Shown here one piece after another: positions 38,664-44,253 of a DNA stretch of 64,000 bases. A program made the position numbers and the translations under genes. The stretch is from Candidatus Scalindua sp. (lineage in GTDB: Bacteria > Planctomycetota > Brocadiia > Brocadiales > Scalinduaceae). The notes beneath the pieces were generated by a model that was given only the letters and a program-made list of their open reading frames with translations, made no database searches and was not told the DNA's origin. Every line of letters begins with the position of its first letter. Within the stretch, counting starts at the first letter, position 1. The stretch covers positions 1 through 64,000 of the forward strand of contig JAIQZU010000006.1 in assembly GCA_021776915.1 (NCBI GenBank), given 5' to 3'.

Positions 38664-39707
38664 TTATAATGATCTTTTTAATACTATCTCGTATTTTGAT
38701 ATTTCAGATAGTTTTACACCGCTAATTACTCCATCAAAAGGTCTTGTGGCGCCGCTTTGAAAGCTGACGATGGAGAAATCAAATTCATAAACTATCTTAT
38801 TGTTTTCACTAAAAATTTTCATATTAAATGATACAGTTGCAAAGTCGTTCCTTGAATTGTTACTGATCTCTCCTTTTACAATAGATGCGGAACTGTAATC
38901 GGCAAAAACAACATTCCTCGCATAGAAATCATTACCGATTTCTTTAAAGTCATTCAATCCTTTTGGCGTTTCCGCCTTTATTTTTTCCACAGATTCTTTT
39001 GCTGCAATTTGAGCTTGCTCTTTTTTAGCCTCTGTTATTGCAGACCCCTGATCATTTTTAATTGTTGTTGCTATTGCTTCTTTGGCTCCAGAAGAGACTG
39101 ATTCTGCCGTCTGTTCTTTTATTGCTTCTTTGGCTCCAGAAGAGACTGATTCAGCCGTCTGTTCTTTTATTACTTCTTTGGCTCCGGAAGAGACTGATTC
39201 AGCCGTCTGTTCTTTTATTACTTTTTTGGCTCCGGAAGAGACTGGTTCAGCCGTTTGTTCTTTTGTTACTTTAATTGGCGTTTCTAAAGATTTGTAAGAC
39301 TCTTGGTATAACTTTTCCCTGACAGCAATATTAACTTCCATATCTTCCGTTTTCTTTGCGATATCTGATAATCTCTTTTTAATAACATCTAATATCCCTT
39401 CGAATGATGCTAATGTATCTTTTAAATCTAAAAACGACGTTGTTTCTTCAATCTTAACAAGCCTTTTATTCATTTTTACCATAGTATCTTTCATCAATGT
39501 ATCATCGCTATTAGTATCTTTCAATTGTTTTTCTTTTGTCTGAAAATTATTTTCAAGGGTTGAAAGCCGTTTATTAACATCATTAAGTAATGCAGTAAAG
39601 GTTTCCAATGACTTTTCATAATCTTCTGAACTCTTTAATTCGCCAGATACGCTATTAGCACCAATAAGAAAGATTGTTAAAACACAAATAATATAAAGTT
39701 TCTTCAT
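38664..39707 (-). CDS. Secreted coiled-coil protein with four 16-residue repeats and an FxLYD-like domain
   Basis: A 347-residue exported protein. Residues 1-22 are a signal peptide; 25-140 form coiled coil. Then come four tandem copies of a 16-residue unit, consensus KEQTAESVSSGAKEAI, encoded by a 48-base direct repeat at about 39067-39260. The C-terminal 95 residues (DFYARNVVFADYSSASIVKG, then EISNNSRNDFATVSFNMKIF) resemble FxLYD domains found in exported proteins. Units differ at a few bases, the outermost (PVSSGAKKVI) most. AAAGGA precedes the ATG. Function unknown. Confidence 0.78.
   Translation of the reverse strand: MKKLYIICVLTIFLIGANSVSGELKSSEDYEKSLETFTALLNDVNKRLSTLENNFQTKEKQLKDTNSDDTLMKDTMVKMNKRLVKIEETTSFLDLKDTLASFEGILDVIKKRLSDIAKKTEDMEVNIAVREKLYQESYKSLETPIKVTKEQTAEPVSSGAKKVIKEQTAESVSSGAKEVIKEQTAESVSSGAKEAIKEQTAESVSSGAKEAIATTIKNDQGSAITEAKKEQAQIAAKESVEKIKAETPKGLNDFKEIGNDFYARNVVFADYSSASIVKGEISNNSRNDFATVSFNMKIFSENNKIVYEFDFSIVSFQSGATRPFDGVISGVKLSEISKYEIVLKRSL
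39067..39260 (-). repeat. 48-base tandem repeat, four units
   Basis: Direct repeats of a 48-base unit in frame within the coiled-coil gene (for example GCTTCTTTGGCTCCAGAAGA). Units 1-3 are near identical on the DNA level, suggesting recent expansion by slippage or unequal recombination. Because the period is a multiple of three, copy number could vary without breaking the protein. Confidence 0.9.
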
Positions 39708-39786: not shown

Positions 39787-40485
39787 CTATGATTTAGTAA
39801 CTGTATTGCACCATTTTTTAAGAGCAGATATGACTGAGTTTCTTTTGTATTCAACAGATAAAGAGGGATCGCGGGACAATTCCAATTGCAGCCAGGAAAT
39901 TTCTCTGGAGTGTCGCCTGATTATATATCCTCCCCTGAAAGGTTTGTTTAGCGATACCTCGCAACCAAAAGCCTCGTTCAGATAATCTGCTAATAAATAG
40001 AACCACTCTTCAGGGCAAGTACCATCGGCATTGCTCAAACAAACCATCGGGCGCAACGATCCTGGGTCGGGGCCTACAGGTGGACCAGACGATGCCATGG
40101 TGTGGCAGTCAATGGCAAGCATGATATCCTTGCCTGCAGAATTTGTAAGTTGTTTATGGTACGGAAAATAGTAGCGATCCAATAATTGTTTAATCACTGC
40201 CGGGGATAATGGAAATTTATAAACAGGTATGTTCCAGCAGGTATGTGTTTTCACAACACCATCTGCAGACAAATCATTCGCTTTCCGGTTCATGTCAACA
40301 AAAGCCCTGGCAATATCAGTGGTAACAAATTCATTGACCAGTTCTTCAATGGCATAGATTTCCCTTGCCCCTTCATCTCCGTCAGCAATAATCTGGTCAG
40401 ATGTCAGCAGGTTGAATGGTTCTACTTCCGGTGGAATGGTCAAACCTGCATGTGGCACGGAAATCAGGAGGGGCAGCTTGTTCAC
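39787..40485 (-). CDS. N-formylglutamate amidohydrolase family protein
   Basis: A 232-residue hydrolase of the N-formylglutamate amidohydrolase (FGase) family: LLISVPHAGLTIPPEV near the N-terminus and the metal-site-like AIDCHTMASSGPP in the middle. Characterised members free glutamate from N-formylglutamate in histidine breakdown, but no hut gene is nearby. Instead it overlaps the gamma-glutamyltransferase stop by 4 bases as the third gene of a minus-strand operon with an ATP-grasp ligase, so an N-acyl- or gamma-glutamyl amino acid is a likelier substrate. Confidence 0.85.
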   Translation of the reverse strand: MNKLPLLISVPHAGLTIPPEVEPFNLLTSDQIIADGDEGAREIYAIEELVNEFVTTDIARAFVDMNRKANDLSADGVVKTHTCWNIPVYKFPLSPAVIKQLLDRYYFPYHKQLTNSAGKDIMLAIDCHTMASSGPPVGPDPGSLRPMVCLSNADGTCPEEWFYLLADYLNEAFGCEVSLNKPFRGGYIIRRHSREISWLQLELSRDPSLSVEYKRNSVISALKKWCNTVTKS

Positions 40486-42098
40486 TGTTTTGGCCCTTTA
40501 GCGGAACCATCACGCCGTGGATCGGCGACTCCAACAAATTCGCCTTTCCTGTTACGCATGATCAGTTGCACACAGCCTAAGTAAAAGGAATACGGGTTAC
40601 GAACATCTATCTCAAAGCCTTTAGAAGCTAACGCATCGGTTATATCATCTCGCATGCGGCTTGCTTCCAGTGATACTTTGCCATTTAGAGAACAAAAAAG
40701 CCTTGGTGCAGCCACCGCTTCATATGGAGAATTTTTGCCAAGGCGTAATAACACTTGAATAATTGTTGATGCAATACGTTCGCTTCCCGGAGAACCGATA
40801 ACCAACCAGGGTTTTCTACCACGAAAGATAATTGTGGGAGAAACACTCGCCCACGGTACCGCATTAGGTCGTAAGTAATGAGGATGGGTAATATCATCGT
40901 ACTCAAAAGCGCTCATGTAATTATTGTAGAGAAAACCAAGTTCTGCTGACGCGCAGAATGATCCGTATACACGTTCTATGGATTGTGTAAGGGAGACTGC
41001 GTTGCCGTAACGATCAACAACAGACAGATGAGTCGTTTCTCCCTTGCCTTTCAGTTTCCTTCTTATTTTTTTTGCGATACGTTGCGCGTACTCGGGTCTT
41101 CTCATACGCTCGTTGTCAATTTGATGGTACAGATTCGGTTCGATGGGGCGGCCCTGACGATCAAGGTTTGCCTGCCGAATGACATTTGCCAGCAATAATG
41201 CCCCTCGCGGTGTGTCCGGATCCCTCTTTTTCGGTGAAAACTGTGACAATATGTTCAACATTGCTATTAAAGCCCTTCCCGCGCCTGGAGGGCACATGGT
41301 AAACACACGGGTATTTTCAAAGCTCGTGGTTAGTGGCCTGCGTTCGACCGGCCAGGGAATTTGTGCAAGATCGTCTGCACGAATAAGTCCGTCATTTGCT
41401 ATCATATCAGCTTCAATCATCTTCGCAATATCACCAAGATAGAAATCCTCAACGCCTGCCGTAGCGATTCTTTCCAACGTCCCGGCAAGTTTTGCCTGTT
41501 TAAATAAGGAACCAACAGGGTAAGGACGTTTACCTTCCTTGAGGAATAGTGGCGCTGCACTGTTGCTGCGTAAATGTTTCCGTTCACGCCTGGTTAAATC
41601 ATATTGCAGTTGGGATATTTCGTAACCATTTTTTGCCAGATCAACAACAGGGCCTAATACATCTTTCAGGTTTAGACTTCCGTAATTTTTTTGAGCATAG
41701 GCCAGTACAGCGGGAGTACTGGGAACGGTGCTGGCTTTGTGCCCCCTGAGAAGTTCTGATTTCATTGATTCACCGGGAATGATTCTATGAGGCGCTCTCG
41801 AAGAGCCATCCAGGGCGATTTTTTTGCGACTTTGAGCGTCATAAAACAATATCATGGTTTGACCGCCCAGGCCCGAAGCTGCCGGTTCGCAGACACCCAA
41901 TGCGAAGGCCGCAGTCACAGCCGCATCCATAGCGTTGCCACCGGCGTTTAATACATCAAATGCCAGCTCAGTGGCACGATAGTGAGCGGTCGACACCATG
42001 CCATATTTAGATACGGACACTTTTTGTGGTTTAGCCAAACGGCGATTACCGGGTTCTAATAACTCGGTATCGACTTTCTTTTTATGTAAAAGCGTCAT
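40482..42098 (-). CDS. Gamma-glutamyltransferase family protein, apparently cytoplasmic
   Basis: A 538-residue Ntn-hydrolase precursor. The autoprocessing and nucleophile segment TTHLSVVD places the catalytic threonine at T355, the match of E. coli T391; EPAASGLGG and GSPGSERIASTII near the ends are family motifs. Ordinary bacterial GGT is periplasmic with a signal peptide; here the N-terminus (MTLLHKKKVDTELLEPGNRR) has none, so it should act in the cytoplasm. It lies 4 bases after the ligase gene and overlaps the FGase gene. It could move or remove gamma-glutamyl groups. Confidence 0.88.
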   Translation of the reverse strand: MTLLHKKKVDTELLEPGNRRLAKPQKVSVSKYGMVSTAHYRATELAFDVLNAGGNAMDAAVTAAFALGVCEPAASGLGGQTMILFYDAQSRKKIALDGSSRAPHRIIPGESMKSELLRGHKASTVPSTPAVLAYAQKNYGSLNLKDVLGPVVDLAKNGYEISQLQYDLTRRERKHLRSNSAAPLFLKEGKRPYPVGSLFKQAKLAGTLERIATAGVEDFYLGDIAKMIEADMIANDGLIRADDLAQIPWPVERRPLTTSFENTRVFTMCPPGAGRALIAMLNILSQFSPKKRDPDTPRGALLLANVIRQANLDRQGRPIEPNLYHQIDNERMRRPEYAQRIAKKIRRKLKGKGETTHLSVVDRYGNAVSLTQSIERVYGSFCASAELGFLYNNYMSAFEYDDITHPHYLRPNAVPWASVSPTIIFRGRKPWLVIGSPGSERIASTIIQVLLRLGKNSPYEAVAAPRLFCSLNGKVSLEASRMRDDITDALASKGFEIDVRNPYSFYLGCVQLIMRNRKGEFVGVADPRRDGSAKGPKQ

Positions 42099-42102
42099 GA
42101 GT

Positions 42103-44253
42103 TTATTTTTCGATAGTTTTTAAAAGAAACCCTGTCAGCAGTAATGTTCTTTGTACGAGGCTGATACGTTGCACTGCTGACTGCGAAGTATGTATATTGG
42201 TAGCTACGGGACCGATACCACAAACTACCGGAATGTTGGTGGGCACTAAACCGGCAACCGAGGGTATAAGGGAAGATTCTCTATCAAGGGGGATTTCCCA
42301 TTGATCGGCGACAGATTGTAAAGAATTAATCAGTCTGGCATTCACTCTTCTATCTTTCATTGATGGTCTATTCGACAACATGGCTAAATTCCAGCGAACA
42401 CTTTTGTCCTTGAGTATTTCGTGAATAGCCTCTTCTGTTTTATTTGCCGTCTTGGTGTCAGGAAAAGACATCTGTAATGTTGCGGTGATACGATGGGGCA
42501 GTAACATTGGAAAAGATTTAGTATGGAAGTCTACCGCAGCAATAGCGATCCTGTCTTTACCGGAAGACAGCCCGGATATTTTTTCAAGTTTTCTAAATAG
42601 CCATAACATTATATCAGGAGTTTTTGAAGATTGTCCCAGTTTTAATGATTTTCCTTCAACGGTCAGACGATATTTTCGCTGTCCACGACGCTTGGTAACC
42701 ATTTTATCATCTATGTTGCCCGCATTCAATACGAGTACCTGTTTAGCAAGACCGGCAATCTTTGAAATTGTAGCAGCGCTATAGCGGGTATCGTTACCTT
42801 CGTCTGTGTAATACATGACCCCCAAATGGATATGCTTAAGCTGACGACAGGATTTTAAGGCTTTAAGTGTATACTCAAGCATAACTAATGGTGCGCGGGA
42901 CGAGCCGACTCCTTCACCATGTAAACATTCCGGATCCCTGCGAAAAGGTTCTGTAGAAATACCTGTGTCTAATGGAACATCAAGTTGTCCAATCAGCAAA
43001 GTACCTTTTTCCAGCCCGGCAGGTGTTTGCCAGACCCAGACATGGGGGTCATCGCTGTATTCCGGCGCTTGTTTCAGGCCCAGTTCATTCAGCTTTTTAT
43101 CGAGTTCATTATGTGCAATCTGGATTCCAATAGGGTCGTTGGTACGGCTGGATATTTGACACCACTGTTGCACCTGTTTTTCCATTTGATCTCTTCGATT
43201 GGTCAGGAAACTAAACGCAACTTTATCAGGAGGTTGATTTCTACCGGCAACCTCAGGAGGGTTCGGAGTGCCGAAATAACGAGCGCTTGCGACATCCACC
43301 AGCCGGTTTACCAGAGCCGAAAAATTCATCCCCATATGTTCTGCCGCCGCCATATAAGATCCATGTTCACCTAAACTTGGCAGACTGTTTACTTCTAAAA
43401 TGTATAAATTACCTTGACAATCAAGCCGCATATCCACTCGCGCACAGTCATAGCAACCTAAAGTGGTGAATGCTCCTATCGCTATTTGTTGCGCCCTGGC
43501 TGCTATGTCTGCTTCGATCGGCGCCGGACATATGACCTCTATCTCACGTCCGGACTTTCTGGTTTTATCTTCATAGGTATAAATCCTTGGTCCGCTTTCA
43601 CCAAAGCCGATTTCTGCGGGTTCAAAAGCCATAGGAGGATTATTACCCAGAATACCTACGTTTATCTCCCTGCCTTCAATATAGCTTTCTACAAGGACAG
43701 GCTGGCTGAATTTATCAAAAATGACCTGAGCGGCGTCCCTGAGTTCCTGTTCATTATTGACGATTTTAATACCAAAGGAGACAGCCTCATTTTTTGGCTT
43801 TACAATGAGAGGAAAAGCCAGATCAGGCTTCTCGAAGCCAGGATTGGTGACTACTGCAAATGGGGGTGTTGGCAGGTTATTTTGCACAAACATCATCTTG
43901 GCCACGACTTTATCCAGAGCGAGTGAATGTGCCAGTGGGCCGGAGCCAACATAGGGAATTCCTATCATTTCTAATATACTGGGTACGTGTGTGTATCTTG
44001 CCTGGCCTTGAATACCATAGGAGAGGTTAAACACCATGCCGGGCTGTTCACCTTTCAGTACTCTAGGCATGAATTCTTCCAGATGATCAATTAAATCCTT
44101 ATCACCTTCTAAAGCGATAACCTGGTGCTTGCCTTTTTTTAGAGAGTCTGTGATACGTTTTATGGCCTTTAATCCATATTTTTCCCGGTTAGGAATACCA
44201 AAAAGGTTGATTACTTTCTGACTTTCTCGATTATAGGCAACTGCTATTTTCAT
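42103..44253 (-). CDS. ATP-grasp ligase fused to an M20 peptidase-like domain
   Basis: A 716-residue two-domain protein. Residues 1-330 resemble D-Ala-D-Ala ligases: FPLIVKPKNEAVSFGI (ATP site), VLVESYIEGREINVGI, YILEVNSLPSLGEHGSY (metal site and substrate loop). Residues about 350-716 follow the M20 peptidase fold: GTLLIGQLDVPLD, CLHGEGVGSSRAPLVML, MYYTDEGNDTR, YRLTVEG and the end GIGPVATNIHTSQSAV. The M20 zinc ligands are only partly kept (Gln where the first His should be), so it may not be a peptidase. It is the first gene of a three-gene operon. AAAGG precedes the ATG. Confidence 0.82.
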   Translation of the reverse strand: MKIAVAYNRESQKVINLFGIPNREKYGLKAIKRITDSLKKGKHQVIALEGDKDLIDHLEEFMPRVLKGEQPGMVFNLSYGIQGQARYTHVPSILEMIGIPYVGSGPLAHSLALDKVVAKMMFVQNNLPTPPFAVVTNPGFEKPDLAFPLIVKPKNEAVSFGIKIVNNEQELRDAAQVIFDKFSQPVLVESYIEGREINVGILGNNPPMAFEPAEIGFGESGPRIYTYEDKTRKSGREIEVICPAPIEADIAARAQQIAIGAFTTLGCYDCARVDMRLDCQGNLYILEVNSLPSLGEHGSYMAAAEHMGMNFSALVNRLVDVASARYFGTPNPPEVAGRNQPPDKVAFSFLTNRRDQMEKQVQQWCQISSRTNDPIGIQIAHNELDKKLNELGLKQAPEYSDDPHVWVWQTPAGLEKGTLLIGQLDVPLDTGISTEPFRRDPECLHGEGVGSSRAPLVMLEYTLKALKSCRQLKHIHLGVMYYTDEGNDTRYSAATISKIAGLAKQVLVLNAGNIDDKMVTKRRGQRKYRLTVEGKSLKLGQSSKTPDIMLWLFRKLEKISGLSSGKDRIAIAAVDFHTKSFPMLLPHRITATLQMSFPDTKTANKTEEAIHEILKDKSVRWNLAMLSNRPSMKDRRVNARLINSLQSVADQWEIPLDRESSLIPSVAGLVPTNIPVVCGIGPVATNIHTSQSAVQRISLVQRTLLLTGFLLKTIEK

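Follow-up and report, generated by a model that had tools for sequence, protein, structure and literature searches.

Layout and distribution of the cassette

The locus raises the question of what a three-gene cassette does when the database labels to be expected for its products, namely a cell-wall ligase, a glutathione enzyme and a histidine enzyme, all look wrong. The window, i.e. the whole stretch of DNA that was analysed, is 64,000 nucleotides long, and its ORF listing places the cassette of Candidatus Scalindua, a marine anammox bacterium, in three adjoining minus-strand ORFs (44253-39787), with the following features:

42103..44253, minus strand: LIG gene, ATP-grasp/M20-like fusion, 716 aa (ORF, Pfam, AlphaFold model)
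43264..44253, minus strand: LIG residues 1-330, Ddl-like ATP-grasp ligase domain (Pfam, residue mapping)
42106..43236, minus strand: LIG residues 340-716, M20-like (carboxypeptidase G2-like) domain without zinc site (profile, fold)
40482..42098, minus strand: GGT-fold Ntn amidase, 538 aa, without signal peptide (ORF, Pfam, alignment)
39787..40485, minus strand: FGase-family amidohydrolase, 232 aa, GTG start (ORF, Pfam, motifs)

The ORFs lie exactly where the sequence-only reading had placed a three-gene operon, and its 4-bp gap (LIG/GGT, +4 bp) and 4-bp overlap (GGT/FGase, -4 bp, the GTG start of FGase overlapping the GGT stop) were confirmed. The window proteins matched the Pfam families Dala_Dala_lig_C (E-value 2.6e-41), G_glu_transpept (4.9e-106) and FGase (1.4e-38), and the cassette is flanked by genes for CorA, DUF502, LpxB and a Na/Ca exchanger. 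A gene for a coiled-coil-like protein with a signal-like N-terminus (window 38664-39707) lies 79 bp downstream of FGase; such a gene is also found downstream of the cassette in the Scalindua loci L004 and L019 and is absent there in L005. Recent foreign origin was rejected on composition, the GC3 of the cassette (0.39-0.43) being ordinary against a window mean of 0.41, and a reading as a defence system was set aside when PADLOC gave no match.

A neighbourhood search for the fusion protein, as proposed earlier, was carried out, and loci were counted as informative when the contig continues past LIG. LIG-GGT-FGase is the gene order of 20 of the 22 informative loci (the window, L003-L007, L019-L024, L049, L050, L052-L055, L057 and L087) from Planctomycetota, Acidobacteriota, Zixibacteria and Pseudomonadota, i.e. 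at least four phyla, with junctions mostly of -4 to +6 bp and flanks that mostly vary between lineages. Since the order is the same in these loci, the adjacency is not due to chance, and the earlier view of one amide ligase and two amidohydrolases as a functional unit gains support. Among the 20, the contig end cuts LIG in L004 and FGase in L023, LIG is short in L057 and the GGT frame is broken in L052; L009 and L025, which end at a contig edge, fall outside the 22. The shortened LIG (L057:7878-9380) lacks its N-terminal part, matching residues 214-715 only, and lies in a 3.27-Mb contig, while the broken GGT frame (L052:9436-11024) is split into two overlapping frames by a frameshift or an assembly error. 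The exceptions are L056, in which LIG has neither partner beside it, and the acidobacteriotal genome G392, in which LIG stands with a GGT bearing a lipoprotein-like signal (L008) and a GGT+FGase pair is found elsewhere (L047). A protein-kinase-like gene was observed right after the cassette in the Zixibacteria phylum (L054:12796-13536 and L055:5802-6524) and directly after LIG in L056 (L056:8397-9110), where GGT and FGase are missing.

The pairwise distances of the three proteins, calculated after removal of members that are near-identical or very distant, correlate with r values of 0.66, 0.52 and 0.49 (permutation with shuffled labels, 0.0002-0.0006), which would be expected of a unit travelling together, although shared host history contributes in part. 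The closest relatives (90-91% identical) belong to Candidatus Scalindua MAGs and one Ca. Brocadiaceae MAG, and GGT was found in 5 of 62 Brocadiales genomes, all five within Scalindua (13 genomes in the sample), the names of the order and the genus being taken from these relatives. LIG-like matches, some of which are free-standing ATP-grasp proteins only, were obtained in 9 of 392 genomes of the window's phylum, 3 of 347 in the phylum of an Acidobacteriota MAG, 7 of 132 in that of a Zixibacteria MAG and 3 of 398 in that of a Hyphomicrobiaceae MAG. The cassette is thus a compact three-enzyme unit present in several phyla, yet in a few percent or less of the genomes sampled.

The fused ligase and its relatives

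The best family match of LIG is Ddl, and a stand-alone Ddl was not found in the cassette's own genome, which is 95% complete; both findings favour a role of LIG in peptidoglycan synthesis as D-Ala-D-Ala or depsipeptide ligase, next to which the hydrolases would lie by chance. However, LIG scores 182.5 bits against the 243-bit cut-off of the best NCBIfam Ddl model and reaches none of the NCBIfam Ddl cut-offs of the 25 models listed. LIG was mapped on E. coli DdlB by alignment, the DdlB residues being divided by role into ATP/Mg/phosphate binding and D-Ala contact. All 16 LIG sequences compared share the ATP/Mg/phosphate residues (K115, K152, K230, R272, D274, E287 and N289, equivalent to DdlB K97, K144, K215, R255, D257, E270 and N272), whereas V158, T231 and G298 of LIG stand at the D-Ala-contact positions S150, Y216 and S281, which across the 16 sequences are replaced by V, mostly T (variable) and G, respectively. 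In addition, 4 of the 5 cassette-bearing Scalindua genomes carry a Ddl-type gene apart from LIG, so that LIG as a stand-in for a missing Ddl was ruled out, and the linkage to GGT and FGase is maintained across phyla. The peptidoglycan assignment is for these reasons considered highly improbable. The retained ATP/Mg residues, the replaced D-Ala contacts and the separate Ddl of the relatives indicate that LIG probably retains ATP-grasp ligase activity, with a predicted substrate other than D-Ala. The earlier opinion that LIG is not a plain Ddl was borne out, and when relatives were checked for a plain D-Ala-D-Ala ligase unlinked to the other two genes, both the residues and the linkage spoke against it. 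A second Ddl-like protein of the cassette's own genome (L002:460-3414, contig C27) is a methyltransferase/ATP-grasp fusion of 644 aa, adjoined on the other strand by an AstE/AspA-type deacylase gene; long frames resembling this fusion occur in several further genomes of the same family.

The M20-like half of the window LIG lies below Pfam detection, although a distant LIG relative passes the Peptidase_M20 cut-off. Its best match by both sequence and fold is carboxypeptidase G2 (CPG2), with a profile E-value of 6e-21 and a TM-score of 0.77 on the target (AlphaFold model, mean pLDDT 82). The zinc ligands of CPG2, numbered as structure chain number plus 22, are taken by us to be H112, D141, E176, E200 and H385. 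In the window LIG four of these positions are changed (D141 to S, E176 to G, E200 to N and H112 to Q), and D141 (S or other), E176 (G or other) and E200 (N, R or K) are lost in 16 of 16 sequences, in agreement with the sequence-only reading that typical zinc ligands are missing; the H112 position is Q in Scalindua and H or N elsewhere, and the position assigned to H385 varies among the 16. Judged from these residues, zinc hydrolysis by the M20-like domain would be impossible via the known mechanism. R629 of LIG is invariant, as is R696, and corresponds to CPG2 R324, which presumably contacts the substrate. With this candidate substrate-binding arginine kept, the M20-like part probably serves as a binding domain.

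Among free-standing homologues of the ATP-grasp part, the nearest are either fused to 7TM_transglut proteins or encoded next to them (L026, L058). The 7TM gene is preceded by GGT both in L058 and on a plasmid of Bradyrhizobium barranii, where the operon (L079:4282-9047) opens with lysine 2,3-aminomutase and further comprises GGT, 7TM protein and ATP-grasp genes, the last encoding a protein with 46% identity to LIG 1-329. The pairing of this type of ATP-grasp protein with a GGT-fold amidase is common to two architectures, a cytoplasmic one with the M20-like domain and FGase and one with a membrane protein. In Mesorhizobium AR10 (L081:3502-9041), panD and lysine 2,3-aminomutase genes lie near the ATP-grasp gene; other rhizobial ATP-grasp copies stand alone. 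An ATP-grasp homologue without GGT next to it was seen on the symbiotic plasmid pNGR234a (L086:6001-7011). A tie of lysine 2,3-aminomutase to the cassette itself was rejected, the cassette loci examined containing no such gene. The distant cassette L050 (LIG 32%) adjoins a RimK-like/GCS2/FGase/C39 operon, whose RimK-like (RLAN), GCS2, FGase and C39-like genes (L050:3303-7499) lie on the strand opposite to the cassette.

The two amidohydrolases

GGT was aligned to E. coli GGT (2e0w, E. coli numbering being the chain number plus 24). The nucleophile T355, equivalent to E. coli T391, is invariant in the family, and the score against TIGR00066 is 340 bits, below the cut-off of 357.85. In the published structure of the E. 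coli enzyme, the gamma-glutamyl group is held by six residues, R114, N411, Q430, D433, S462 and S463. Only S463 is kept throughout the family, R114 being replaced by S, N411 by E, Q430 by Y, D433 by A (S once) and S462 mostly by A. The gamma-glutamyl substrate suggested by the sequence-only reading is not supported, because the pocket is replaced family-wide, and a gamma-glutamyl (glutathione-like) cycle inside the cell, for which the family names GGT and N-formylglutamate amidohydrolase speak, is given very little credence on the same ground. The same reading had described GGT as cytoplasmic and free of a signal peptide. This agrees with the window GGT, on which no hydrophobic N-terminus is visible, and with the acidobacteriotal genome G730, where LIG and GGT form a single 1235-aa ORF and GGT is cytoplasmic as part of the same ORF, unless an assembly error joined the genes.

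FGase retains the motifs PHAG, RAFVDMNR, DCHTM, FRGGY and LQLELSR, the key residues of which are invariant, and scores 133.7 bits against PF05013 (cut-off 28.9) and 62.8 bits against the HutG model TIGR02017 (cut-off 278.75). As had been noted from the sequence, no histidine-pathway gene is found among the neighbours of the window cassette; HutU, HutI and an FchA-like gene are clustered together on another contig of the same genome, and the FchA-like gene points to a folate route, without need for HutG. Score, linkage and this gene led to rejection of HutG as the identity of the cassette FGase, which is probably a different enzyme. Two urocanase genes with near-equal scores were observed in the same genome on separate contigs (L090, C51; L091, C15).

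Proposed function and comparison with known systems

The interpretation favoured, with moderate confidence, is that the cassette is a dedicated intracellular system that makes and trims an amide-bonded small molecule or conjugate. This model draws on the observed gene order and its conservation, on the domain folds, on which residues are retained or lost and on the separateness from Ddl, and adds to them a predicted ligase activity, M20-like role and order of reactions; the ligase and hydrolase roles we infer from the kept residues. The ATP-grasp domain of LIG would use ATP to activate a carboxylate as an acyl phosphate and then join it to an amine other than D-alanine. The fused M20-like domain, the role of which is presumed to be binding or regulatory, would most likely bind a carboxylate-bearing substrate or product and either present it to the ligase or regulate the ligase. 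Amide bonds in the LIG product would then be cut by the two hydrolases, the Ntn amidase of GGT fold and the amidohydrolase of FGase type, either to remove a group added earlier or to recycle the molecule; the recycling of a dipeptide, as first suggested from the sequence, may be one form of this. A more specific version is put forward tentatively as a possibility: an unknown amide metabolite or conjugate would be made and trimmed with a zinc-less former glutamate carboxypeptidase as the ligase's substrate-binding domain and a relative of GGT that has given up gamma-glutamyl recognition; the rhizobial sister form, which consists of 7TM protein, GGT and ATP-grasp and on some plasmids has a lysine 2,3-aminomutase gene close by, would use a beta-amino acid to make a related compound.

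RimK glutamylates the ribosomal protein RpsF, and RimB is its partner protease. By analogy, LIG might add an amino acid to a macromolecule (a protein or peptide) and the two hydrolases might remove it. Such reversible modification would be in keeping with the 7TM_transglut proteins, RloB's kind of protein, beside or fused to the nearest free-standing LIG homologues, and with RloA of the rlo operon, which cleaves polyglutamate (PMC12239564). However, it seems rather unlikely, as LIG is of Ddl type and not RimK type, the form with the fusion lacks a membrane partner, and the loci compared share neither a substrate protein nor a precursor peptide next to the cassette. Since both downstream enzymes are hydrolases, a purely catabolic or salvage role was also considered, in which GGT and FGase would degrade a compound of N-acyl or amide type, the product of which LIG would activate or re-use. 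Two of the three enzymes are indeed hydrolases with intact catalytic residues, but an ATP-spending ligase heading the operon would be unexpected in such a route, and the loci compared have neither a transporter gene nor an oxidation gene in common alongside the cassette, which makes this role distinctly unlikely.

The product of the proposed make-and-trim system, if found, would count as a new metabolite or modification of amide type in anammox bacteria and related bacteria of sediments, and LIG would show clearly how a dead peptidase can be put to new use within a ligase; with only three genes, the cassette is testable in a laboratory host. A search of the open-access literature found no paper describing the LIG-GGT-FGase combination. 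Its parts resemble known enzymes to differing degrees: LIG shares the fold and ATP/Mg residues of Ddl but differs in substrate-contact residues and operon context; it shares the fold and the R324 equivalent of carboxypeptidase G2 but has lost the zinc ligands; and the cassette GGT shares the fold, the Ntn nucleophile Thr and S463 of E. coli gamma-glutamyltranspeptidase but has most gamma-glutamyl contacts replaced and no signal peptide. LysX and LysK of LysW-mediated lysine/arginine biosynthesis likewise pair an ATP-grasp ligase with an M20-type peptidase; however, LysK is an active metallopeptidase and the system needs the LysW carrier, whereas the M20 part of the cassette has no zinc site, and no LysW was noticed among the genes next to the cassette. 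Operons of amidoligases and hydrolases were reportedly predicted by comparative genomics by Iyer et al. in 2009; like the cassette, these short operons join hydrolases, FGase among them, to an ATP-grasp ligase. The cassette differs in that its ligase is of Ddl type and carries a zinc-less M20 domain as a fusion, and in that its partner is a GGT-fold amidase. The Pseudomonas aeruginosa rlo operon (RloA protease, RloB 7TM, RloC ATP-grasp), which acts in osmotic stress tolerance (PMC12239564), is similar in joining an ATP-grasp protein to a hydrolase and through the 7TM_transglut proteins that accompany LIG homologues, but the cassette has neither a 7TM protein nor a retropepsin and its hydrolases are of the GGT and FGase types. 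With a predicted ATP-grasp ligase and amidohydrolases in an operon conserved in 20 of the 22 loci, the cassette is an amidoligase/hydrolase operon in the wide sense, and it is best read as an uncharacterised variant within these predicted operons.
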